Assembly: GCA_018303025.1 (NCBI GenBank)
Contig: JAGVYZ010000024.1
Span: 1 to 41,066, forward strand
Source: Candidatus Woesearchaeota archaeon
GTDB lineage: Archaea; Nanobdellota; Nanobdellia; SCGC-AAA011-G17; GW2011-AR20
Reading direction: 5' to 3'
Length of the DNA: 41,066 bases
In this document: piece after piece, positions 1,124 through 39,400 of the stretch
Layout: each line of letters starts with the position of its first letter
Numbering within the stretch: the first letter of the stretch is position 1
The notes under the pieces: model-generated
Database searches by the model: none
Told to the model about the DNA's origin: nothing
The model's input: the letters and a program-made list of their open reading frames with translations, nothing else
Made by a program: the position numbers and the translations under genes

Positions 1124-1816
1124 ATGTTAACTATCCCTGAATTTTCAATTTTATCAGAGGATTTTATTCCTGAATCTAATATTAGATTGAGTGATTTAAA
1201 GGGAAATGTTACTGAATATATCCCTTCTGTTATGAAACGTAGTGGTTCATTAATGATTAGACCTCCTTCAGTTGTTTATGTTTTTTTTCCGTATAATGAA
1301 AAAGATTTGCATATTAAATTAAGGCATATTCCCGGAGTATTAGCGTATATTAATTTAAGGAAATCAGATTATGGTATGCCTCTTGAAGATTTATTAGAAG
1401 ATGCAAGTGCTTTGATTAATAATGGAATTGAATATGATGTTGAGTTATGTTTAAGTAAAATTAGAGACTTGATTAATCCTTCTGCAACAAAATTAAAAAA
1501 AATTGAATCCTATTTAAGATCTGGAAGGTATGAACCTTCAGGTCAAGAAGTATTAAAAGGAATTTGTAGTGAATCTGGCTTTTTAATTAGATCTTACTTG
1601 AATAAATTAGAATTGCCTGATTCTGTTAAGTTTATTGAAGTTACTAGTACTAATCCACATAAACTTGGCAGATTTGGTTTAAGTCATGATACTACTTTAG
1701 TATTTGATAATGTAACTGGAAGTTGGATAGTTATTAATTCAAAAAGTCCAATAAAACATTATAATGTAGTGCCTAAAGGAAAATTAGCTGACTTGGGCTA
1801 TCCTTATGTCAAATAA
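1124..1816 (+). CDS. Unrecognised 230-residue protein
   Basis: I do not recognise this protein. It has 230 residues, no signal peptide and no membrane segment. It is a mixed alpha/beta sequence with a helical, charged middle (about residues 95-135) and a C-terminal part rich in beta-type residues (VKFIEVTS, TTLVFDNVTGSWIVINS). No catalytic motif stands out. It follows tfb by 21 nt, so cotranscription is likely, but no function follows from that. Its 3' end overlaps the convergent RNase Z gene by 8 nt. Codon use and composition match its neighbours. Confidence 0.75.
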   Translation: MLTIPEFSILSEDFIPESNIRLSDLKGNVTEYIPSVMKRSGSLMIRPPSVVYVFFPYNEKDLHIKLRHIPGVLAYINLRKSDYGMPLEDLLEDASALINNGIEYDVELCLSKIRDLINPSATKLKKIESYLRSGRYEPSGQEVLKGICSESGFLIRSYLNKLELPDSVKFIEVTSTNPHKLGRFGLSHDTTLVFDNVTGSWIVINSKSPIKHYNVVPKGKLADLGYPYVK

Positions 1817-2687
1817 TTATTTCCATAAAATCATAAGCTAATTTTGTGTTTTTGAAAACAGCTTTTGCTTCTTTTTCGAGTTCATCTACACTTTTATATC
1901 TCTGGGAGAAATGTGTTAAGATTAAATTTTTTACTTTTGAGTCTTTTGCCATCTTTGCTGCTTCTTTTGCTGTTAGATGTTCTGGATTTTTATGCTCCTC
2001 TAATAATGTACCTTCACTGATTAAATAATCAGAATCTTTTACAAACTTGTTTATTTCTTTGAAGTATTTTGTGTCAATAACGAAAGATATTACTTTTCCT
2101 TTTTTTAGAATTGTTCCTTGTTTTACACTAATTTTATGTCCATCATAGACAATGTCTTTTCCTTTTTGCAATTTTCCTAATATTGGGTCTTTTTCTAAAC
2201 CAAACTTTTTAGTGTAATCTAAGTTAATGTTTCTCTTGTCATTTTCAATGAATTTATAGGCTAAGCAAGAAGCTGAATGTTTTAATGGAAATGCTTCTAA
2301 TTTGTAGTTTTCATTTTTGAAAAAAATACCTTTACTTATTTCTTCTACATTTAAGTTAATTAAATGCCTTATTGAAACTCCTTTTAGTAAATGGTTTAAA
2401 TATTCTTTGCTTCCTTTTGGACCGAAAATATTTAATGTTTCTGTGTAATGATTTGCACCTAAGCTTTGAATTATTCCTAGCAATCCAAGAACATGGTCTC
2501 CATGCCAATGGGTAATTAATATTTTTTTTACTTTTGTTACTGGAATGCCTTTTATTCTTAATTGGCGTTGAGTACCTTCTCCTGCATCTATTAAAATGCC
2601 CTCTCCCTTGTATTCTAAGTAAATTGAAGAGTGATTCCTTTCTCTAGTTGGTACCATTGCTGTTGTTCCTAAAAAAGTGATTTTCAT
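1809..2687 (-). CDS. rnz: Ribonuclease Z (tRNA 3'-processing endonuclease)
   Basis: RNase Z removes the 3' trailer from pre-tRNAs; the tRNA genes in this window do not encode CCA. The 292-residue protein is a metallo-beta-lactamase fold of the short tRNase Z length. Diagnostic parts are the N-terminal FLGTTAMVPTRERNHSS block, GEGTQRQL (about residues 37-43), the metal-binding HWHGDH (His60, His62, Asp64, His65), His137 in LKHSAS, Asp in the VIDTK segment, the EHLTAKEAA block and the C-terminal ILTHFSQRY histidine. It diverges from endA and appears to share a TATA box with it. Its leader of about 30 nt is almost entirely a hairpin element found elsewhere in the window. Confidence 0.93.
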   Translation of the reverse strand: MKITFLGTTAMVPTRERNHSSIYLEYKGEGILIDAGEGTQRQLRIKGIPVTKVKKILITHWHGDHVLGLLGIIQSLGANHYTETLNIFGPKGSKEYLNHLLKGVSIRHLINLNVEEISKGIFFKNENYKLEAFPLKHSASCLAYKFIENDKRNINLDYTKKFGLEKDPILGKLQKGKDIVYDGHKISVKQGTILKKGKVISFVIDTKYFKEINKFVKDSDYLISEGTLLEEHKNPEHLTAKEAAKMAKDSKVKNLILTHFSQRYKSVDELEKEAKAVFKNTKLAYDFMEIII

Positions 2688-2690
2688 TTT

Positions 2691-2725
2691 TTCTTTCCTT
2701 AAGGTTTCTTTCCTAAAGAAAGCTT
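2691..2725 (-). repeat. Palindromic element, copy in the rnz leader
   Basis: Read on the minus strand, this begins AAGCTTTCTT, continues with a short loop and AAGAAACCTT, then AAGGAAAGAAA. AAGGTTTCTT and AAGCTTTCTT form the two arms. The same order of blocks occurs at 36897-36932 in the adhesin gene and at 20003-20037 in the tRNA-Val intron. Here it forms the 5' untranslated leader of rnz and ends 3 nt before the ATG. Confidence 0.6.
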
Positions 2726-2734
2726 AATAGAAAG

Positions 2735-2766: not shown

Positions 2767-3297
2767 ATGGTAGAGACTGAAGCGATAATTGCAGTAATGA
2801 TGAATGAGAGGGTTACTTCTGTATCTGAATTAGCTAGAGCATTATATGAACAATCTAGATATGGGGAGATTAAAGAAGATAAGGTACAGTATTCTTTAGT
2901 TGAAGCACTTTATTTATTAGAAAAAGGAAAATTAGTTTTAAAAGATTTAAAAGATAAAGACATTGTATTTGATAAAGCCTTGAAAAAAGCAATTAAATTA
3001 GAGCCAAATTTTTGGGTTAGATATATTGCTTATAGAGATATGAGAAATAGAGGATATATTGTTAAGACTGCTTTAAAATTTGGAGCTGATTTTAGGATAT
3101 ATGACAGAGGGGTTAAACCTGGTGAAGACCATGCTAAATGGATTTTATATCCTGTTCATGAATCATCTGCATTAACCTGGTATGAGTTCGCTGCTAAGAA
3201 CAGAGTAGCTCATTCAACTAAGAAGAAGTTGCTGTTAGGAATAGTTGATGATGAGAACGATATAACTTATTATTCTATTTCCTGGACAAGACCATAA
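2767..3297 (+). CDS. endA: tRNA-intron splicing endonuclease EndA, single-domain type
   Basis: EndA cuts bulge-helix-bulge junctions in pre-tRNA and pre-rRNA. The 176-residue length and single N-domain plus C-terminal nuclease domain match the homotetrameric alpha4 class. The catalytic triad is visible: Tyr112 in FRIYDRG, His122 in DHAKW and Lys153 in STKKKLL. The offset is constant relative to the Tyr115/His125/Lys156 triad I recall for the Methanocaldococcus enzyme. The C-terminal ITYYSISW strand supports the dimer interface. The start codon is 26 nt from a TATA box, so the mRNA is leaderless. All three tRNA genes of this window carry introns that this enzyme should cut, most at non-canonical positions. 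No second (beta) subunit is seen here. Confidence 0.94.
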   Translation: MVETEAIIAVMMNERVTSVSELARALYEQSRYGEIKEDKVQYSLVEALYLLEKGKLVLKDLKDKDIVFDKALKKAIKLEPNFWVRYIAYRDMRNRGYIVKTALKFGADFRIYDRGVKPGEDHAKWILYPVHESSALTWYEFAAKNRVAHSTKKKLLLGIVDDENDITYYSISWTRP

Positions 3298-7004: not shown

Positions 7005-7040
7005 CCATAACCTAAATTCATTTTGAATTTAAGGATATGG
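7005..7040 (-). repeat. Right-end hairpin of the IS605-type element
   Basis: CCATA (7005-7009) pairs with TATGG (7036-7040) and CCTAAATTCA (7011-7020) pairs with TGAATTTAAGG (7024-7034) around a short T loop. The hairpin overlaps the last codons of tnpB, whose stop is at 7018. In characterised elements this region also forms the scaffold of the TnpB guide (omega) RNA, so a minus-strand omega RNA ending near 7005 is likely. Confidence 0.55.
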
Positions 7041-8178
7041 CTTCTGACTTCATAGATGCATCTTGCTGAACGAATTGTTCAGTATTGGATGCTTTCTCCA
7101 TCGAGGCAAGTTCCTTACCTCTTGCTAATATATTTAGTGCAGAATTGTAGTCTCTTGAAATTTCTTTGTTGCATTTTTTACAAACAAACTTTCTTTGTGA
7201 AATTTCAAGCTTGTTGTTTCTCGTTCCACAAAAACTACAATCCATCGTAGTATAAGCAGGGTCTACATCTTGGACTACACAACCAGCACTTTCAGCCTTG
7301 TAGTGTAGATAACAAGATAGTTTTCCCCAGCTTGCATCTGCGATATTTTTAGCATTATACGAAATTGACATTAAGTTTTTTATATTCAATTTTTCAATAG
7401 CAATAAACTTGTTTTCTTTAATAAGTTTAGCAGAAAGCTTGTGAATAAAATCATCTCTTGCATTAGCAATCTTTTCGTGGATTTTAGCAACTTTTATCCT
7501 TGCCTTTTTTCTGCTATTACTTCCTTTATTTTTCCTTGATAAAGATTGCTGTGCAGTCTTTAGTTCTGAATGATACTTGTCAAAATGCTTGGGATTTTCA
7601 TAAGCATTTCCCTCGCTGTCATAAATATAATTCATAATACCAGCATCAATTCCAATTTCTTTAGTTCCACATTCTCTTTTAATAATTGCATCGGTTGTAA
7701 TGGAAGCATACCATTTTTCATTAGACTTTTTTATTGTAATATTTTTTATATTTCCTTCAACTTCTCTGTGTAGTTTGATTGGAATATATCCAATCTTTGA
7801 CAAATGCAACAAGTCATACCTTTTGTTTGTCTTAATCAACTTGAATCCAGATTGATTATAAGTGAAAGTCTTAAACCAGTTTTTTCCTTTGAATCTTAAT
7901 CTTCCAACTTTATGCCCTTTCTTTTTTAATTTAGAAAGCGAAGATAAATTAGAAAACAATCTTTGATTTTCCATCTGCAAAACTTTAGAATGAATCTCAT
8001 TCATTTCAGGATAACAAACCTTCAAATCAAGCAAGTAATTCTGAATTTCGTTTTTTGTATATCTTCCATTGAGTTCTGAAAGCAGATGATTATAAGTTTG
8101 CCTGCAAACTTCTTTAGCTATTTCTAGCTTTTCTTCTTCTGCTTTCTTTAGGTATAATCTGAATTTGTAGGTTATCAT
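7018..8178 (-). CDS. tnpB: TnpB, RNA-guided nuclease of an IS605-type element
   Basis: A complete 386-residue TnpB. The RuvC catalytic residues are intact: Asp178 in EIGIDAG, Glu262 in IAIEKLNI and Asp343 in SRDYNSALN. A zinc ribbon lies between them (Cys314, Cys317, Cys333, Cys336). The N-terminal OrfB helix-turn-helix region is present. TnpB proteins are ancestors of Cas12 and cut DNA guided by an RNA from the element's right end. Its ATG lies in a 4-nt ATGA overlap with the stop of an upstream AbrB-like gene, so the two are coupled. All catalytic residues being kept suggests recent or retained activity. Confidence 0.93.
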   Translation of the reverse strand: MITYKFRLYLKKAEEEKLEIAKEVCRQTYNHLLSELNGRYTKNEIQNYLLDLKVCYPEMNEIHSKVLQMENQRLFSNLSSLSKLKKKGHKVGRLRFKGKNWFKTFTYNQSGFKLIKTNKRYDLLHLSKIGYIPIKLHREVEGNIKNITIKKSNEKWYASITTDAIIKRECGTKEIGIDAGIMNYIYDSEGNAYENPKHFDKYHSELKTAQQSLSRKNKGSNSRKKARIKVAKIHEKIANARDDFIHKLSAKLIKENKFIAIEKLNIKNLMSISYNAKNIADASWGKLSCYLHYKAESAGCVVQDVDPAYTTMDCSFCGTRNNKLEISQRKFVCKKCNKEISRDYNSALNILARGKELASMEKASNTEQFVQQDASMKSEAISLNSK

Positions 8179-9869: not shown

Positions 9870-12800
9870 TTATTTAAAAATTATGGTTGCTGTTGCTGGA
9901 TTAGTGCCTGATGCTGGAATAAATGAAGTTATTGCTATTTTTTCAATATTTAAACTATTTATATTGTAATAAATTAAATTTGAACCAGTCGAAATTGGTA
10001 ATTGCTGGGCAATAGGCTTGTTGTCCCTTAAAATATTCGAGCCTGTTAAATACAATTTTGAAGCATCCCTTTGATCAGGATTAATTATAATTGTTTCTTC
10101 TTTTTTATCCAATGTTGTGCTTCCAGAAGCAAAATATCTTGTTAATGTTATTGGCAGTGTTGCAGACAATTTTATATTAGGACAGGTTATTATATTATTT
10201 GCTTCCTGACATGATATAAATTTACCATCCTGCTTTGCTAATACATCGGGAGCATAATTACATATTACTTTTATAATTTCCTGATTGACTTGCCCATGGG
10301 GAATATCATAATCCTTATTATTAAAATTTACAATTAGATGGTCATCATCTCTTCCTTCATTATTTCCATTTGCATAATCTATTAAAACTTGCATACCGCC
10401 ACTAAAACTTCTTGGATTATTTTTTAATGACAAAAGTATTGAAGGGAATATTGCTTCTAACATGCCTGGAGGGAAGAATGTATTAAGATCTATAGAGCTA
10501 AGAGCAGAGTATATTTCTTCTTCTTTATTTCTTTCATGAAAATTTATTCTACTATTCCATTCGCTATTAATAAAAGAAAATTGTAAATTGGTGAGTTGGT
10601 AGTCATCATTGTCATATTCTATCTGGCACATTGGAGTGGAAGTTGGGGTAATGGTTTGTTCTGCTGCATTCTTTATAACTAAATCTAAAAGGTAATTTTG
10701 TTTTAATTTAAATTCAATTTCCTTTTTAGGATCGCAATTTATAATTACTTTTTTTGAACCTAGAATTATAACACTACCAGTAATATCTTTAAAAGAAATA
10801 TGTTGATTTCCTTGAGTATTACAAGCGTACTTAGTATAATAATTTCCTTCTTTCTCTTTTATACTATAATATACATGTCCCTGTTCTCGAAATAACTCCA
10901 TAGTAATCTTCTTTCCGTCTACTACTACACTACTTTCTTCTGTTAAATCATAACAATTAATTGTATTCGCGTCTACTTTTTCGCATCTGGGTCCTGTTCC
11001 GCTTTGTCCAGCAGAATTTGCAACTTTAGTAAGTTCGCATTGATTTAGTATTAAATTTAAACTATACTCTAAAGCAGAAGTTGTTACTGTGTTGACTTTT
11101 ATTGAACCCTTATCACTATTTTCTAGATGAACATTTACATAATCATCATCATTTTGACCATTTTCAAGTATCATTCTCTGTAAACCGCTTAAGAAATTTT
11201 TATTTTCTAAATCTCGAATAAGAGTTTGCACCCCTGTATCTCCTTTAGTTGGAATTGTTCCAGTAGGTTTATAATTTTCATTAGTGTTTTCTTTATACTG
11301 CCATTTATTTAAAGGACCATTTGGTTGCTTGATATATTTTAAGATAATATTAATATCACTTATGCCTAAGAATGCCCCATTGTTGTATTCAAATCTACAA
11401 AGAGCAAGATTTCCTGCGATTCTATCACCAGTCATATGTTCACCACCAGATGGATTAAAAGATAAAGTTGTTTCTTCTGCTTCTTGCTCTCCTGATGATT
11501 CTACTGGAGTTTGTTTTAATTTACAACCTTTTGTAGTTGAATCTGGTTCGTATTCTGTTGAAGTGCATTTACACTGGTTTTCTGAAGCAGGTGGGTTGCA
11601 GAATTTACTTGCCCAGTCTGTTGAACTTAGACTGCCTAAATCACATTGCTCTTCTGTATTTGCATCAATAACATTATTCCCACATTTTCTTCTGTCTGCT
11701 TCTAATTTTATTGTATTTGTTAAATCAGCAAATGCAAAATAAATCATGCTTATTCTTAATTGAGACTGGGATATTATTTCTGGGTCGCCATCAACTGTAT
11801 TGGTTAAGTCTGCTAATTTTCTATAATTAGTAAAAGTATTTCCTGAAGAAATTCCAGTTAGTGTTTGTGAATTAACAAGTTGATTGGAAGTTATTAAGGC
11901 ATTTTTTAATGAACCTGAATCTGTTTGAGCTAATATTTCTGATAATTTTGTATTAAAGCTTTGTAAGTTTTCTTGTGGCAATAAAGCAATCTGGGAAGAA
12001 AATGTTTTTCCATTTGAACTTAATTCAAATTTGTCTGAAATTATTTTATTTAATTCTACCTGTAATTTTGTAAATGATTCTCTCATGAATTTTATTTTTT
12101 GATTTGTTGGCTGATTTTCTTCTGAAGAAGTTATTGTTGTTTGAACCTGACCTGCTAATTGCCTATCTGTAATATCTATTGTTGAAATATCAATCCAACA
12201 CTGGCCTAAACTTCTTCCTAATTCATCCTTGCCACATGTTCCTATTATTTGCCATGATTCTATTTTACCTGTTGATTTTCCTGGATTTTCATTGCTGCAT
12301 AACCTGTTAATTCCTGCATTAGAGTTTCCTAATGTTGTAGGAAGAGCGAGAACATCATTTACAACAGGACCTTGATTAGATGGCATGCATTCATCTGCTG
12401 TTTTTATTAATTGGTTAGCTGAGTTAGCTGTCAATTGATCCTGGACTGCTGTGAATGCTAATGATGTTGATAATCTTGAATTGCCACATTCTTCTTTTCC
12501 ATTTGCCCAGATGCATATTTGTGTATAACCTGGACGAGATGTTACACTTAATGATTTGTCTATTGTAGAACCTTTTGCTGTTCTTGCTAATTGGGAATTA
12601 ACTTCATCTGTAACATAAATTACAGGAACTCCTGATACAGGGTGCTTCATATAAACTGAATATTTTAAATCATTTGAAGAACCTGCATAAACATGGTAAT
12701 AAATATTATAACGAGATAATCCTGCTGACCTTTGCTGTAAATTACCTGTTGTTGGATTTTCTTCACTATAAGGAGATTCATCAAAATAAGCTGAAAACTG

Positions 12801-19952: not shown

Positions 19953-19962
19953 CTATATAAAT
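19953..19962 (+). promoter_or_regulatory. TATA box of tRNA-Val
   Basis: CTATATAAAT is centred about 28 nt before the tRNA 5' end at 19985. It follows the stop of the upstream gene by 1 nt. Confidence 0.65.
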
Positions 19963-19999
19963 GACTGAAATTTGATAATTTTAAGGGCTCATCGTCTAG

Positions 20000-20098
20000 A
20001 CGAAGCTTTCTTTTGTAAAAGAAACCTTCAGGAAGAAGCTTTTTAGAAAAAAGCTTCAGCAAAAAGGAACATCTGAAGAAAAAGAAAGGAAGGGACAA
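20000..20098 (+). other. tRNA-Val intron 1 (D loop, 99 nt)
   Basis: The junction helix is GTCT (19994-19997) with GGAC (20093-20096); the bulges are AGA (19998-20000) and AAC (20097-20099). The intron holds two hairpin modules, one at 20008-20025 (TTTCTTTT, GT, AAAAGAAA) and one at 20035-20057 (GAAGCTTTTT with AAAAAAGCTTC). Both modules recur elsewhere in the window. Confidence 0.7.
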
Positions 20099-20120
20099 CG
20101 GTTATGACGTCACCTTGACG

Positions 20121-20132
20121 AAGATTTCAGAA
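20121..20132 (+). other. tRNA-Val intron 2 (canonical 37/38, 12 nt)
   Basis: The junction helix is TTGA (20115-20118) with TCAG (20127-20130), with one T-G pair. The bulges are CGA and AAT. At 12 nt this is about as short as an archaeal tRNA intron can be; there is no room for a distal stem. Confidence 0.75.
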
Positions 20133-20154
20133 TGGTGAAGGTCGCAGGTTCAAA

Positions 20155-20222
20155 AGAAGCCTTTTCTTGTAAGAAAAGCCTTCGGGGAAAAGAACACCCT
20201 GAAAAAGAAAAGCTTTTGAAAG
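20155..20222 (+). other. tRNA-Val intron 3 (T loop 59/60, 68 nt)
   Basis: A textbook junction: helix TTCA (20149-20152) with TGAA (20217-20220), bulges AAA and AGT, distal stem GAAGC (20156-20160) with GCTTT (20212-20216). The interior hairpin CTTTTCTT, GT, AAGAAAAG (20161-20178) resembles the first module of intron 1. Confidence 0.85.
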
Positions 20223-20262
20223 TCCTGCTGGGCCCAATTTTTATTATTCTTTTTCATTAAAG

Positions 20263-20280
20263 TTTTTCTTACAAGAAAAA
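20263..20280. terminator. Hairpin between convergent tRNA-Val and the M14-type gene
   Basis: TTTTTCTT (20263-20270) pairs with AAGAAAAA (20273-20280). It ends 2 nt before the stop of the minus-strand gene at 20283 and follows the tRNA-Val trailer, which has T-rich stretches (20237-20256). It could terminate both transcripts. Its sequence matches the hairpin motif of the tRNA-Val introns. Confidence 0.45.
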
Positions 20281-20282
20281 GT

Positions 20283-21254
20283 TTATTCTACATAAGCAAA
20301 AGACATTATAGGTGTACCTGGAAAGGAAACAGCTGAATCAGAATAACCGAGAACTATTCCATCTTTTAATGCTGATATTGATTCCTGGACTGTGCCAAAT
20401 ATACTGTATATTTTTGCAACTGTCTGACCTGCTAAAACAAAATCACCTGGTTTCGAAGTATATCTAATTATACCTGATTTAGAAGTATGGGGATGAGAAG
20501 AATACTTGAATTTCTTATCTTTTATGTTCAATAAAGGAAATTCAAATTGTTCTCTTTTTTCAACCATGTTAAAAGACATTAAAATATTCCATATTGAGTC
20601 TACGCCATATTCTACATTTTTTTCATTAACAACGCTTGATTCACCTAATTCTAATGTTAATGAAGGTATATCTTGATTTAACAAGCTAAAAGATAATGTT
20701 CTGTCTAAATTATCCTGCTTTATGCTTTCAATTGCTTCCTGAACAACTAAAAAACCTGTTTTTCTTGCAAAATATCTTGCTTTTTTATATGCTAATTTAT
20801 TTTGCTTTCCTGGCTGGACATCTACTAAGCAATAAGGGATTGAATTTGTCCAATCATTATGCAAATCAATTACTAATCTTGGTTTTGTTTCTTGTATTGT
20901 TGAAAATATCTTGAATGCTATTCTTTCTGCAAATGAGCCGTCTTCATCACCTGGAAAAGACCTGTTTAAATCTTCTTCACTTAGAGTTATATCTCTTGAA
21001 GAGGTTTCAAATCCAATTGGATTCATTAATGGAAATGCATAAATTGTGCCTTTTAACAAAGGTGATTTTTTTAATCTCTTGAAAAGTTCTTGAATTATAA
21101 CTATTGTTCCTACTTCATCACCATGAGAACATGCGGTTAACCAAATTATTGGACCTGAGGTATTGCTCTTTGCTTTCATAATAGGGAGCCTTCTAGATGA
21201 AATTTCTGAACCTGTAATTATTTTCAAGAATGAAAACTCAATTTTTTGTGTCAT
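20283..21254 (-). CDS. Succinylglutamate desuccinylase/aspartoacylase-family metallohydrolase
   Basis: A 323-residue M14-like zinc enzyme. Zinc ligands are His44 and Glu47 in SHGDEVG and His132 in DLHNDW. Substrate-binding blocks include NPIGF (78-82), SSRD (85-88), DLNRSFPG (95-102) and the catalytic Glu in LELGES (201-205). The C-terminal 90 residues form a beta-rich, lipoyl-like domain (KPGDFVLAGQTVAKIY). The family includes enzymes that remove acyl groups from amino acids and peptidase-like members; the substrate here is unknown. A TTTAAAT box about 27 nt upstream suggests a leaderless message. Confidence 0.88.
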   Translation of the reverse strand: MTQKIEFSFLKIITGSEISSRRLPIMKAKSNTSGPIIWLTACSHGDEVGTIVIIQELFKRLKKSPLLKGTIYAFPLMNPIGFETSSRDITLSEEDLNRSFPGDEDGSFAERIAFKIFSTIQETKPRLVIDLHNDWTNSIPYCLVDVQPGKQNKLAYKKARYFARKTGFLVVQEAIESIKQDNLDRTLSFSLLNQDIPSLTLELGESSVVNEKNVEYGVDSIWNILMSFNMVEKREQFEFPLLNIKDKKFKYSSHPHTSKSGIIRYTSKPGDFVLAGQTVAKIYSIFGTVQESISALKDGIVLGYSDSAVSFPGTPIMSFAYVE

Positions 21255-21344
21255 TAGAATATGTATTTTGAAGAATATTTAAATTCTTTGTAAAGAAAAT
21301 AAAAAAAAAGCCTCAAAGGAGATTTGAACTCCCGGCCTACTGCT

Positions 21345-21372
21345 AACTTTCTTGAGCAATAGTAAACTCAGA
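21345..21372 (-). other. tRNA-Thr intron 2 (canonical 37/38, 28 nt)
   Basis: The cut bulges are TAT and TTA. The central helix CTTG with AAAG has three pairs and one mismatch, so this junction is weaker than the others. The distal stem is CTGAG with CTCA(A)G, one base bulged. Confidence 0.75.
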
Positions 21373-21382
21373 TACAAGGCAG

Positions 21383-21403
21383 CTGAGCATATAAGATTAT
21401 ATT
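21383..21403 (-). other. tRNA-Thr intron 1 (27/28, 21 nt)
   Basis: The junction helix is GAGC (21409-21406) with GCTC; bulges are AAA and AGC; the outer helix is GGTA with TGCC and the distal stem ATATA with TATAT. Removing it turns an otherwise impossible anticodon stem into five perfect pairs. Confidence 0.85.
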
Positions 21404-21454
21404 TTGCTCTACCAGGCTGAGCTATTGAGGCTTAAAATTAAGAAATTTGAAGCA

Positions 21455-26000: not shown

Positions 26001-26063
26001 TTATATTTCAACCTCAAAAAAATGTAATGCTCCTTTTTGTTTAATTGGATTTATTCTTTTAGG
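26001..26063 (-). pseudogene. C-terminal fragment of an ASCH-domain gene
   Basis: About 20 codons ending at TAA 26001-26003 read NPIKQKGALHFFEVEI. The C-terminus of the intact ASCH protein at 30365-30736 reads KPIKQKGQLGFFEVDKN. The underlying DNA also matches over about 45 nt. The fragment starts at the stop codon of the reverse transcriptase, so the rest of this paralogue is missing. Confidence 0.6.
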
Positions 26064-27138
26064 GTTTTGCTATCTTTAACCATCTGTTAATTTCTATATC
26101 GGCTAGTTCATTAGGAAAACTTTTTTCAATTTTCATGATTAATCGTCTTTTAAGTCTATAAGTATTAGCATTGTTCATATAAGCAAAAGAACCTTGAATG
26201 GTTTCATAAAATTTATTATAATTAATGTTATCTTTTAGCAAAGAACATTCTTTTAATTTTCTTTGAATATTTTTTCTGTTAAACCTTTTTAATAATTTAT
26301 AATAATAAAATATTCTAAATCCAACAAAAGATACTCCTCTTCCTAAATAAATAATCTTTGACTTATCTGGATGAAGCTCTAATTTTAATTCATTTTTAAG
26401 AAACAAATTTATTTTTTCTTTGTTCTTTTCTAAGATTTCTTTATTGCTGTTAAAAATAACAAAATCATCAACATATCTTATGTAGTATTTTATTTTTAAT
26501 TTGTGCTTAACAAAATAATCCAGTTCATTTAAATAAACATTTGCGAAAAACTGAGAAGTTAAATTGCCTAAAGGCATTCCTTTGCCTTTAACTTCTGAAT
26601 TAAAATTGCTTAAAATTTGCTTAATTAACCAAATAATTTTCTCATCTTTTATTTTTCTTTTTATGATATTAATTAATATTTCATGAGAAACTGTGTCAAA
26701 ATAATGCCTGATATCTGCCTTAAGAATAAAGCAGTTTTTTGTATTATTTTTTGAAACTTTTCTTTTGAAAAAATCAAATCTGTTTAAGGCTGATAAGGTT
26801 CCTTTGCCTAATCGGTTTGCATAGGAATCAAAAATAAAAATCCTTTCAAAAATTGGTTCTATTATATTGCATAAGGCATGGTGAACTATTCTATCTTTAA
26901 AATCTGATTTGTTTATCTTTCTTGTTTTTGGGTCTCTAATGATAAAAGTTTCCAATGGTTTTGGTTTGTAAGAATGCAATAATAATTCTATTCTTAAAAG
27001 AGAAAGATTCTTCTTTAAATCTTTTCTAAATTCTTGCACATATTCTTTCTTTGTTTTTCTTTTTCTTGCTTTTTTATATGCTAAATGTAAATTTTCTTTT
27101 GAAGTAATCTCTGGATAAAGATTCTCATAAGTTTTCAT
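26059..27138 (-). CDS. Reverse transcriptase of a diversity-generating retroelement
   Basis: A 359-residue group II-intron/DGR-type reverse transcriptase. Counting from Met at 27138: RT fingers begin near residue 20, the first catalytic Asp is in KADIRHYFD (Asp142), the DGR-type LGNLTSQ motif is at about 189-195, and the active site is YVDD (222-225). The C-terminal thumb is present (LELHPDKSKIIYLGRGVSFV). The frame stays open upstream to 27279 through the template repeat, but the domain starts at MKTYENLYPEI. The enzyme copies the TR RNA with adenine-specific errors into the VR of the adjacent gene. No Avd gene is visible. Confidence 0.93.
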   Translation of the reverse strand: MKTYENLYPEITSKENLHLAYKKARKRKTKKEYVQEFRKDLKKNLSLLRIELLLHSYKPKPLETFIIRDPKTRKINKSDFKDRIVHHALCNIIEPIFERIFIFDSYANRLGKGTLSALNRFDFFKRKVSKNNTKNCFILKADIRHYFDTVSHEILINIIKRKIKDEKIIWLIKQILSNFNSEVKGKGMPLGNLTSQFFANVYLNELDYFVKHKLKIKYYIRYVDDFVIFNSNKEILEKNKEKINLFLKNELKLELHPDKSKIIYLGRGVSFVGFRIFYYYKLLKRFNRKNIQRKLKECSLLKDNINYNKFYETIQGSFAYMNNANTYRLKRRLIMKIEKSFPNELADIEINRWLKIAKP

Positions 27139-27160
27139 TGTCTTAGATTCTAGGGCTATT

Positions 27161-27250
27161 CCAAAAGCATGACCATCCCTGTTGTTGCCATGATTGTTGC
27201 CATTAACGTTAAGCCTGTTGTCAAGGTTCCAATCGGAGTACAAAGCGGAA
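27161..27250 (-). repeat. DGR template repeat (TR)
   Basis: This 90-bp block aligns without gaps to the VR at 27471-27560. It differs at 12 positions, every one an A on the coding (minus) strand of TR. It lies 22 bp upstream of the reverse transcriptase ATG. Similarity continues beyond the core towards 27267 with a one-codon gap. Its sense strand is rich in AAC/AAT codons, the usual DGR template signature. Confidence 0.93.
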
Positions 27251-27371
27251 TAGTTATGTAGCTCATTAATTAAAAGCAAATCACCACCATTTCATATTTC
27301 ATTTTTTACTTAATGTCATGGTTGAATTTTATGGCTTTATCTATAAAGCACTATCAATGGGCGTGTAGCCC

Positions 27372-27394
27372 TAGTTTAGCTTACGCTAAAACTA
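27372..27394. other. Inverted repeat between VR gene and TR
   Basis: TAGTTTAGC (27372-27380) pairs with GCTAAAACTA (27385-27394) around TTAC, with one bulged base. It lies in the 139-bp gap between the variable gene's end and the TR-RT frame. It may be a terminator of the variable gene or part of the TR transcript. Confidence 0.4.
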
Positions 27395-27421
27395 AGACAT
27401 AAAAAAGAAAAATAATTTGGC

Positions 27422-28162
27422 TTATAAACTTTTTTCGGCTGGACTGGCTTCGCCAGTCTTTCTCTGTACCCCAAAAGCATGACCATCCCTGCCGCTGCCA
27501 CGAACGTTGCCATTAACGCAAAGCCTGTTGACAAGGCTCCAAACGGAGCACAAAGCGGAAACTCTGGTTACTGGTTCATTAACAGAAGTCAAAGCAAGTA
27601 AATATGGATTTTTTCTATGCTTATCCGCAATATCTGCTAATTTCTCTGCACCTTCTCTATCTTGGGCCATTGCTATTACAAGCCTATTTCTAGCTAAGTC
27701 TTTAACTTTCATTTCTTCTGTTTTAAAACCATAAGGTATAAATCTTAATAATCCATCATCACTATAAACAACCCCATCTTCTTCTCTGCTTCCTAATTTC
27801 TTTTCTAAATCAGATTCGTTCATAACAGCAGTATTATTTACAACATCAGGAAAGTCTAAAACAAAAACTCCTTTGGAATAATGAATACCAGTAAATCCTC
27901 TAACCCATGCATCTTTCATAATTTTTTTAATATAATCAGCATATTTGGCATAATCTGGATTTTTATTAGTAAAACCAGCATGAACTATATCAACAGAATC
28001 TCTAAAACTTGGTCTTATTAAACCGTCTGCTGGTATTCTATCATTAAGCTCAGAATAAGTTCCTTGATAAGCTGGATGAATAAAAGTTGTTGTTTTTTGT
28101 CTATCTGAAATAACATCTAATTCTGTTCTTCCTTCTCTTACTTGTAATAATGATTCTACCAT
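27422..28162 (-). CDS. DGR variable (target) protein
   Basis: A 246-residue protein whose C-terminal part (about residues 200-231) is the variable region, ending GHAFGV. This W-x-NG-x-GHAFG-type ending is typical of the C-type-lectin fold used by DGR target proteins. There is no signal peptide, so it probably acts inside the cell. Residues 1-190 are not recognised; they contain IHYSKGVFVLDFPDVVNN and a helix-rich middle. Compared with TR translation, the variable positions are Cys, Val, Ser, Val, Cys, Val, Arg, Ser and Gly in place of Tyr, Asp, Asn, Asp, Asn, Asn, His, Asn and Asn. A strong Shine-Dalgarno and TATA box precede it. Confidence 0.88.
   Translation of the reverse strand: MVESLLQVREGRTELDVISDRQKTTTFIHPAYQGTYSELNDRIPADGLIRPSFRDSVDIVHAGFTNKNPDYAKYADYIKKIMKDAWVRGFTGIHYSKGVFVLDFPDVVNNTAVMNESDLEKKLGSREEDGVVYSDDGLLRFIPYGFKTEEMKVKDLARNRLVIAMAQDREGAEKLADIADKHRKNPYLLALTSVNEPVTRVSALCSVWSLVNRLCVNGNVRGSGRDGHAFGVQRKTGEASPAEKSL
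27442..27458 (-). other. GC-rich hairpin downstream of VR
   Basis: GACTGGC (27458-27452 on the minus strand) pairs with GCCAGTC around GAA, a 7-bp stem in otherwise AT-rich DNA. It begins 12 nt past the VR core. Studied phage DGRs have a hairpin at this position that aids target recognition; the match in place and shape is good. Confidence 0.65.
27471..27560 (-). repeat. DGR variable repeat (VR)
   Basis: The 3' part of the target gene. It is 78/90 identical to TR, with all 12 differences at TR adenines (A to G, A to T). The end nearest the gene's 3' terminus, which should contain the initiation-of-homology site, is identical in both copies for 21 bp (27471-27491). Confidence 0.93.
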
Positions 28163-36442: not shown

Positions 36443-39400
36443 AAGACTCCTGATTATTGGGATTGTATTATTGCTTCTTTTAGGCTTTGGAGTCTTGAAT
36501 CAGTATACTGGAATGATTGTTTATACTGGTGAGCCTGTTGTTGAGAATAAAGTTATGAGCTTAGAGCTAACTAAAGATTACTCTGAGAATGCTTACTTCT
36601 TGCTTAATGTAAATGGCAAAGATTACAAGAAAAACTATAATGAATTGTTTAGTGAGAAGTTGAATACATTAGAAGTAAATGTTGATAGTTTCACCTACTT
36701 AGAAAGTGGAGAATATCAAGCAATACTTTCTTTGATTGATAATGGAACTTTGATTGGGTTGAGTGTTGATAAAATTGTAATTGTTAATGAAGATTATATC
36801 ACTGGTATTGTACTACAAAATGAAAGCGAAATAAATGAACAAATTGAAAATCAGACAGAATTAAATGAGCAAAACAATGAAATAATTACACTACAGGAAG
36901 CTTTCTTAGAAAGAAACCTTCAGGAAAGAAACGAAACAATAGTTGAACAGAACATTAGTGCAATAAATGAGACAAATATTTCTGAAATAAATACGACGCT
37001 AAATGATGTAAATGTTACACTACAGAATGAAAGCAATTTAACAATAGAAATTAATAATACATTTACACTACATAACACTACTGAAAGAAGTCTAAAGAAA
37101 ATCAGAGTGGGAGAAAATGTAACTTTAATTAGAAAGATTAGTTTGAATGAAACACAAGATAATTTAACTATTCAAATTCCTGGAAATGCTGAACTTTTGA
37201 AAGTTGAGAAAATTACTGAAAATGGAAGAGTAGATATTACTTATAATGTTAATAGTTACAAAGGAAACAAAGCTAGCAAAGGAAACTTGTTTACTGGATT
37301 GTTTTTCTTAGACTTCTTTAGATTTACTGGGTTCTCTGTCTACTCAGAAGAAGCTTCTTCACAAGAAGCTTCAACAAAAACTATTTTGACTTTGGAGATA
37401 ACTAAAGAGTTTAGTCCTAATGCTTACTTCTTGCTTAATGTTGATGGACAAGATTACAAGAAAGGTTATACTGAATTGTTTAGTGAAATTAAAACAGGAA
37501 GCTTGGATGTTGATGTTACTCAAATAGGTGATTTGGAAAATGGAAAACATGATGCAATACTTTCCTTGATTGACAATGAAACTTTGGTTGGATTGACTTC
37601 TGGAGAGATTGTCATAAATAATAAAGACAAGAAAGAAGAGCCAAAAGATGAAAAGAACATTACTGAAAGCTTGGAAGAAGAAAAGCTTACTATTGAAATA
37701 GATGGACCTGTAAAAGAAGTTGAGGTTACTTTTGAAATACCAGGACCTGTTGCTTATGAAAAGAACTTGAGTGAAAATAGAAAGGAAGTAATTGTTAGTT
37801 CTGATTATGGTTTTGTAAATGTAACTGCTTATACTAAACTTCCTAAAGAAGTTCCTAATAATCAGATTAGAGTTTATTGGGTAAATGAGAATAGACTTAA
37901 AATAGGGAACTTGACTTATTATGATTATGATAATGATTCCTTAATTGATGAAGTTGAATGGATTGTTCCTCATCTTTCTAATCAGACATTTGAAGTTTCA
38001 ATTGAAATTTTGAATGTGCAATCATATCCTATGGTTGGTGGAACATGGATTGTTAGGTTTGAAACTTCTGAAATTGGAAACTTAACTATTGAAGGAAGTA
38101 ATGGAACAACATATGGTGAAGTTAATTCAGATAATGAAGGAACTGCAAATGATTTAATACCTCTTACTTTGAAATGTGGAAATGAAACTCTTTTTGATAA
38201 AGAAAATTTGATTGCTTCTGAAAATATTAAAATAAATGCTTCTGGAAACTTAGTTGACTTTAGTTCAACATTAGGTTTTAGTTATAATTTTGATTCTTTA
38301 ACTGCAAATGATTATTCCTGTAACTCTACTGGTGAATGGACTGTTAAAGTTTTAACACAAGGTAAACATACTCAGAAATTTACATTAAATGATGAAATTG
38401 TTTATGCATATAATGATGCACAATCGTGTGATGCACCTACTGATGGACCTTGGAATATTACTTCAATTGTAACTTGTGCTAATGTAAATAATATTACAAT
38501 GAATGGCAACATTAATATTACTCCTACTGGCTGGTTGAGATTAGAGAATGTTACTATTTATATGAATTCTACTTATTCTGGACAATATGCATTGTTGAAT
38601 TATGGTAATCTTACTATAAATCAATCTACTCTAAATGCTACAACAGGTATAAATACTCAAACTGGAGATAAAAACTGGCACTTCAGAAGTTATCCAAATA
38701 GTTTCTTGGAAATTTATGAAAGCAGATTAGCATATATTGGAAATTACAGTTTGAATCTAGGTGGCAGTGGTTTTATCGGTTATGCTGAAAGCAATAATGA
38801 GTATCAATTTTATGTAAACACAAATAATAGCATTATTAAGTTTACTAATTTTAGCCAGAATTGGGGAATTTATTTAAATGGAAATAATCATACTTTTTAT
38901 AAAAATACACGATATAACATTGGTTCTTCAAATGCTTTCAAGGGATATATACATTTGACTAATGTTACTAATAGCAACATATCAAGCAATGCTTTTTCAG
39001 AAAATCTTGGTTATACTTATGCAAATCATGCAGTTTATATTTATCACAGTTCAGGTAATAGTTTTACCAGCAATGTTTGGGTTACTGGAACGAGATATGC
39101 AGCAAATAACTTATATTTTCCAATGGTTTTTATTGGTGATTCTGATAATAATAGATTTATTGGAGAGACATGGCCATGGGGATATTATGGATATATTGAA
39201 GTGAATGGAAGAGATAATTATTTCCAAAGCAATAATTATTATGGTGGATGTGGTGGAACTTATAATGATGCAACCAATGGATTTACATGGAGCGCTGTCT
39301 TAAAGAATGCCTATAATACAACATTTTATAATGATACAATTGAGAACTGCTGGTATATTTATGGCAATCAAACACATAGAGATACTACTTCTTTTGAAAA

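Follow-up and report, generated by a model that had tools for sequence, protein, structure and literature searches.

Transfer RNA genes interrupted by three introns are known from the Thermoproteales and from a red alga, as set out in PMC4033280, PMC8450103 and PMC9602550; the algal case is a tRNA-Ile(UAU) with introns in its D, anticodon and T arms (PMC9602550). In the Thermoproteales, large-scale transposition of tRNA introns bounded by bulge-helix-bulge (BHB) motifs has been reported (Fujishima 2010, as related in PMC4033280 and PMC4090602). A review calls the mechanism by which archaeal tRNA introns transpose unknown (PMC4090602), and according to a 2012 paper there was no direct evidence tying disrupted tRNA genes to mobile elements (PMC3293823). 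Here we describe a tRNA-Val(GAC) gene on a 41,066-nt contig of a Candidatus Woesearchaeota archaeon (JAGVYZ010000024.1; the whole of this stretch is referred to as the window). It is likely that the gene carries three BHB introns and that two of them, those of the D and T loops, come from a mobile palindromic repeat; we infer the splicing, the direction of spread and the mobility from sequence comparisons.

The gene lies on the plus strand. Exon 1 (19985..19999), which comprises the 5' strand of the acceptor stem through position 15, is followed by a 99-nt D-loop intron at position 15/16 (20000..20098). Exon 2 (20099..20120) supplies the remainder of the D arm, the 5' strand of the anticodon stem, the anticodon GAC and position 37, and borders a 12-nt anticodon-loop intron at the canonical position 37/38 (20121..20132). 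Exon 3 (20133..20154) continues with the 3' strand of the anticodon stem, the variable region and the T arm through position 59, after which comes a 68-nt T-loop intron at position 59/60 (20155..20222); exon 4 (20223..20236) holds the remaining T arm, the 3' strand of the acceptor stem and the discriminator A. All of these exon coordinates coincide exactly with those proposed in a first-pass annotation of the window. From reading the sequence, a candidate TATA-like box, TATATAAA, is located 24-31 nt 5' of exon 1 (19954..19961, +).

When the introns are removed, the joined exons (GGGCTCATCGTCTAGCGGTTATGACGTCACCTTGACGTGGTGAAGGTCGCAGGTTCAAATCCTGCTGGGCCCA, 73 nt) form a standard cloverleaf that ARAGORN calls as tRNA-Val(gac). 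The first-pass annotation had described this cloverleaf as perfect; its length and identity hold, but the acceptor stem includes one U-G pair and 13:22 of the D stem is U-U. The unspliced gene draws no call from either ARAGORN or Rfam scans of the window, as had been anticipated for ordinary finders. At each of the three exon-intron junctions, a 4-bp helix with two 3-nt bulges is present, and the helices are the ones claimed earlier: GTCT(19994-19997)/GGAC(20093-20096), with one G-U pair, for the D-loop intron; TTGA/TCAG, with one U-G pair, for the anticodon-loop intron; and TTCA(20149-20152)/TGAA(20217-20220), Watson-Crick throughout, for the T-loop intron. The T-loop motif is fully canonical, with inner and outer helices of 5 bp each. 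In the D-loop motif the inner helix is a single pair, followed by an internal loop, and the 12-nt intron has a relaxed motif with no inner helix. A strict BHB filter (inner helix of at least 3 pairs) missed the D-loop intron and was dropped.

We searched 60 related genomes for orthologues, using an exon 2 pattern. In eight genomes of the same order, tRNA-Val(GAC) is uninterrupted and has exactly these joins, so the exon boundaries are fixed independently of the BHB argument. Two further genomes (G028 and G043) have an intron at 59/60 only. Collectively, the eight uninterrupted and two singly interrupted orthologues indicate that the intron pattern is not due to chance. Along with the exact joins, the BHB motifs and the ARAGORN call on the spliced sequence, the uninterrupted orthologues support the three-intron reading of the first-pass annotation. 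That annotation also asked for a check on other Val(GAC) genes; none was found in the assembly, which is 87.5% complete, the only other Val genes seen being Val-CAC and a D-loop-interrupted Val-TAC. The locus is predicted, as part of the explanation we favour, to encode a functional tRNA-Val(GAC) whose precursor has introns at 15/16, 37/38 and 59/60. Its rarity had been overstated, as multi-intron tRNAs have been reported for Nanoarchaeum equitans and ARMAN (PMC4033280), and several more occur in this genome, some apparently with three introns. The earlier description of the genome as DPANN-like is supported only loosely: the nearest named relative of its eS1 protein, at 40% identity, is from a 'Nanoarchaeota' metagenome-assembled genome.

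The larger point, overlooked in the first-pass annotation, is that the D- and T-loop introns belong to a repeat with more than 100 copies. By eye, a core is shared among these two introns, introns of other tRNAs and intergenic DNA. The element is ~46 nt long and consists of a hairpin, GAAGC-TTTTCTTT-NN-AAAGAAAA-CCTTC, followed by an A-rich tail. A degenerate pattern for the hairpin has 12 exact matches in the genome, versus 0 for a reversed control. A covariance model, R1, was built from 15 copies and describes one hairpin of 12 pairs, six of which are changed on both sides; 99.4% of cells pair. A second model, R2, was built from 26 copies, none of them in a tRNA, and shows similar covariation. 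Double-change cells in the stem number 20 for R1 and 45 for R2, and none of 500 shuffles reached the score. At E <= 1.3e-4, R1 finds 103 copies in the 1.06-Mb genome. R2 detects not only the T-loop (E 4e-9) and D-loop (E 5.6e-7) introns of the window but also introns of Lys, Asp, Glu, Ser, Leu, Trp, Gly and other tRNAs (7.6e-13 to 4e-5). Because R2 derives from non-tRNA copies and still finds introns, the homology between introns and repeat is independent of training on introns.

In the T-loop intron of tRNA-Val(GAC), the element makes up the first 46 nt (20155..20200, +; R1 55.9 bits; R2 48.1 bits); over the first 42 nt this intron is identical to a copy in an open reading frame (ORF) of 186 aa (G000:C2:5571-5616). 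The 5' end of the D-loop intron matches the first 34-36 model positions (20002..20034, +; R1 42.6 bits; R2 38.8 bits), and a possible second, degenerate hairpin comes next (20035..20065, +), with a weak R2 score of 19.4 bits (E 0.017). The 12-nt anticodon-loop intron is unrelated to the element. Further copies in the window are situated at the stop codon of the downstream convergent gene (20241..20286, -, for the copy; 20283-21254, -, for the gene; R2 42.9 bits, E 6.3e-8), at the start of an RNase Z gene (2683..2727, -; R2 57.4 bits) and in frame in an ORF (LQEAFLERNLQERNE; 36896..36938, +; R2 46.8 bits), the last two copies being in the R2 training set. In T-loop introns, and in the D-loop intron of the window, the element starts 0-2 nt from the 5' splice site, which argues that it is the body of the intron rather than an insert within an older one. 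The D-loop case may be one in which an earlier intron was invaded or replaced by the element, since the Val-TAC gene (L015) has a 28-nt D-loop intron with the same position and 3' end (GGACAA) as the 99-nt intron, and no element.

We placed the 103 copies using mechanical ORF calls. Introns in the D, anticodon and T loops of at least a dozen tRNAs account for 18 copies; another 23 overlap ORFs (21 of them in sense) and 62 fall between genes, mostly in the sense of transcription. Between co-directional genes, sense copies outnumber antisense copies 36 to 5 (p 8e-7), and many copies extend to a stop or start codon. Genes for unrelated proteins read through the element in frame, with all three frames used; these proteins include PEP synthase and DNA polymerase D (PolD, large subunit), where the predicted peptides of the element region are SVSFEKETLQEKKTEI and KLFLWKEKSSIKRNQNEE, respectively. 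Both of these copies occupy variable linkers, so that solved relatives show no clean insertion, and they are recognised by DNA homology only. Ten of the 103 copies are bounded by direct repeats of 12 bp or more, versus 0 in re-paired controls; these repeats frequently take in the start codon of the gene that follows.

For 11 of the 18 tRNA copies, the nearest copy lies outside tRNA genes (0.81-0.96 identity), which implies that the element inserted into tRNAs repeatedly and separately, from a dispersed pool. The remaining seven, all T-loop introns (Ser, Glu-CTC, Val, three Leu and one on C3), form a tight tRNA cluster with identities of 0.93-1.0. Both repeated insertion and spread from tRNA to tRNA are needed to account for this pattern.

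The element has a patchy distribution. At E <= 0.001, 78 of 103 genomes in the order have no match, and families f15 and f17 include members with about 15-21 matches; R1 counts per genome are higher than these order-wide counts. Most genomes of the same family, which serve as a control, have 0-3 matches, and an A+T-rich background is therefore disfavoured as the source of matches. In G043, which belongs to another family, the T-loop intron of tRNA-Val(GAC) is the same element, and taking out its 49 nt gives tRNA-Val(gac). Element-like sequence was also seen in or beside introns of tRNA genes in L088 (G002), L090 (G039), L092 (G021) and L084 (G022); brute-force splicing was clear for L079 and L088 and ambiguous for L090 and L092.

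Several other observations concern tRNA genes of this genome. A gene in L145 (G000:C40:11763-11811, -) is another multi-intron tRNA, apparently with three introns including the T-loop element. A tRNA-Leu(CAA) gene at G000:C35:66085 (L018 1501-1800) contains the T-loop element and has no 3' exon in the sequence examined; it may be a decayed gene, a split tRNA or the product of an assembly problem. A second repeat, ~AAGGG-N-CCCTTCACGAACC, is nested in the first in L040 and also occurs in the anticodon intron of a tRNA-Trp (L045) and 5' of the tRNA-Leu(CAA) gene.

That two of the three introns are copies of a hairpin repeat scattered more than 100 times, in protein genes and other tRNA genes among other places, suggests that mobile DNA creates tRNA introns. 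We propose that a short palindromic repeat has spread to over 100 places, entering tRNA loops and gene junctions as well as protein genes, the last in frame. A tRNA loop would tolerate the insert where a BHB motif is completed by the 5' arm of the element (GAAGC) together with a 3' segment that ends in ...YGAAAG, and from such a site the T-loop version would also have moved from tRNA to tRNA. Spread would thus have run from repeat to intron, with the repeat itself presumed mobile. The three BHB motifs of tRNA-Val(GAC) would be cut by EndA, a tRNA-splicing endonuclease whose gene is also in the window, and joining of the exons would follow. On balance, we lean towards regarding the element as the first clear archaeal 'introner', a mobile palindrome that enters mRNA genes, gene junctions and tRNA loops and in the loops becomes a BHB intron.

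A number of points weigh against this account. The YGAAAG 3' ends of the T-loop introns are not part of the dispersed element, and insertion alone consequently leaves completion of the BHB motif unexplained. Flanking duplications are seen for ~10% of copies; as these are a minority, vary in length (12-25 bp) and in two of ten cases lie at contig ends, they do not establish target-site duplication for the bulk of the copies. No genome of a close relative was found to have this locus unoccupied, and the comparison spans genera. Weak copies may be chance matches, given the A+T-rich and in part low-complexity sequence of the element. Finally, the genome appears to encode an EndA of the alpha type only; PMC4033280 describes this class as confined to canonical motifs, yet the 12-nt intron lacks an inner helix. 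The EndA gene (2767..3297, +; PF01974 98 bits, PF02778) has as its closest solved relative 3iey_A, the catalytic subunit of the N. equitans enzyme (E 1e-37). In the alignment it does not have the short insertion of the N. equitans subunit and so may be alpha-type, a class assignment to be read against an incomplete assembly. A second splicing endonuclease gene was not found in this incomplete assembly, where a diverged beta subunit could be missed.

Other explanations can be set beside this one. If introns came first, ordinary archaeal tRNA introns, like those of the Thermoproteales, would have spread between tRNAs, and the copies in mRNA genes would be escaped introns. The tight cluster of seven T-loop introns is in keeping with such a history, as is the intron transposition on a large scale documented in the Thermoproteales (PMC4033280, PMC4090602). 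However, the other 11 tRNA copies are nearest to non-tRNA copies, copies outside tRNAs match the introns over the ~46-nt core only and do not have the splice-site end, and they outnumber tRNA copies 85:18, all of which makes this order of events improbable. Alternatively, the hairpin could be a functional RNA or mRNA signal, for example a processing or protein-binding site at gene junctions, which is selected, immobile and was borrowed by introns. Covariation in the stem, the strong sense bias and the frequent placement right on stop or start codons between genes of an operon would be expected of such a signal, but copies in frame in proteins as unrelated as PEP synthase and PolD, the near-absence from same-family genomes and the occurrence of flanking duplications would not, and we give the idea very little weight.

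It is harder still to credit that the tRNA-Val(GAC) gene is decayed and non-functional, with its intron-like pattern a by-product of repeat insertion. The tRNA-Leu(CAA) gene that contains the T-loop element and no 3' exon offers a precedent of sorts; all stems of tRNA-Val(GAC) are intact, however, it has all three BHB motifs, and the assembly yielded no other Val(GAC) gene to read GUC/GUU.

Returning to a mobile repeat as the source of the introns, we looked at routes by which it could move. Reverse splicing fits poorly, because non-tRNA copies lack the intron 3' end. A Y1 transposase, of which there is one clear case (C20:8804-9151), is unsupported as mobiliser, with no element copy in the part of its surroundings that was examined; nor does L160, which holds this transposase, have any element match, where a RAYT gene would be expected to have palindromes on its flanks. 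A single reverse transcriptase was found, that of a diversity-generating retroelement in the window, and no link between it and the element was found. An RNA intermediate would be in keeping with the A-rich tail, the sense bias and the variable duplications. The same bias would result from selection against having the T-rich strand in transcripts, archaeal terminators being T-rich.

The window encodes several other features. An RNase Z-like protein (1809..2687, -; PF12706/PF13691), involved in tRNA 3' processing, adjoins EndA. A tRNA-Thr(TGT) gene (21309-21431, -) also needs splicing, with a 21-nt intron near position 26 and a 28-nt anticodon-loop intron, both unrelated to the dispersed element. 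ARAGORN calls a tRNA-Arg at 10581-10679 (+), antisense within a 2505-aa transglycosylase-domain ORF, and this is probably false. The retroelement mentioned above spans 26059-28162 (-), with the reverse transcriptase at 26059-27279, an RT-16 RNA at 27253-27397, a template repeat at 27161-27250 and a variable repeat at 27471-27560; the two repeats show 12 differences, all at template adenines (8 A>G, 4 A>T). At 7018-8178 (-) lies the gene for a TnpB-like protein (IS605 OrfB) that stands alone, with no TnpA beside it.

The origin and movement of archaeal tRNA introns have been open questions, and here the same element is found in three tRNA loops and is far more numerous outside tRNAs, which makes intron gain directly testable by comparing occupied and empty sites. 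If correct, the introner reading would account for the repeated gain of non-canonical tRNA introns in these DPANN-like archaea. To standard annotation, such genomes seem to lack part of their tRNA set, which element-bearing introns would explain, and the element can be used as a seed model for finding hidden tRNAs.

As in the Thermoproteales, similar introns are common to different tRNAs; the difference is that in this DPANN-like archaeon the core of the intron is a repeat of more than 100 copies, which also occurs in intergenic DNA and as in-frame sequence within protein genes. In its features the element resembles the Rickettsia palindromic elements (RPEs; PMC10969869), short palindromic repeats that are likewise in frame in unrelated protein genes. 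RPEs, however, are ~150 bp and bacterial, whereas this element is ~46 nt and archaeal and also forms predicted spliced tRNA introns. With its many similar dispersed copies (103) and 12-pair covarying hairpin, it is comparable to miniature inverted-repeat transposable elements as well as to RPEs, but no partner transposase with matching ends was seen at the one clear Y1 transposase. A mobile-element origin has been put forward for an archaeal tRNA intron before, in the tRNA-Thr of Caldiarchaeum (PMC3293823). That case involves one tRNA and a plasmid-like integrase element at an att site, in contrast to a short palindrome in at least a dozen tRNAs. Eukaryotic introners, mentioned in PMC11782384, are repeat elements that create introns in many genes, and here too the intron copies are homologous to a dispersed element (by R2) and appear to represent separate insertions (11 of 18 by nearest neighbour). 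They differ in that EndA and BHB motifs would take the place of the spliceosome, the targets are tRNAs and the element is very short. We found no report, in the open-licence literature, of tRNA introns from a repeat family also inserted in protein genes.
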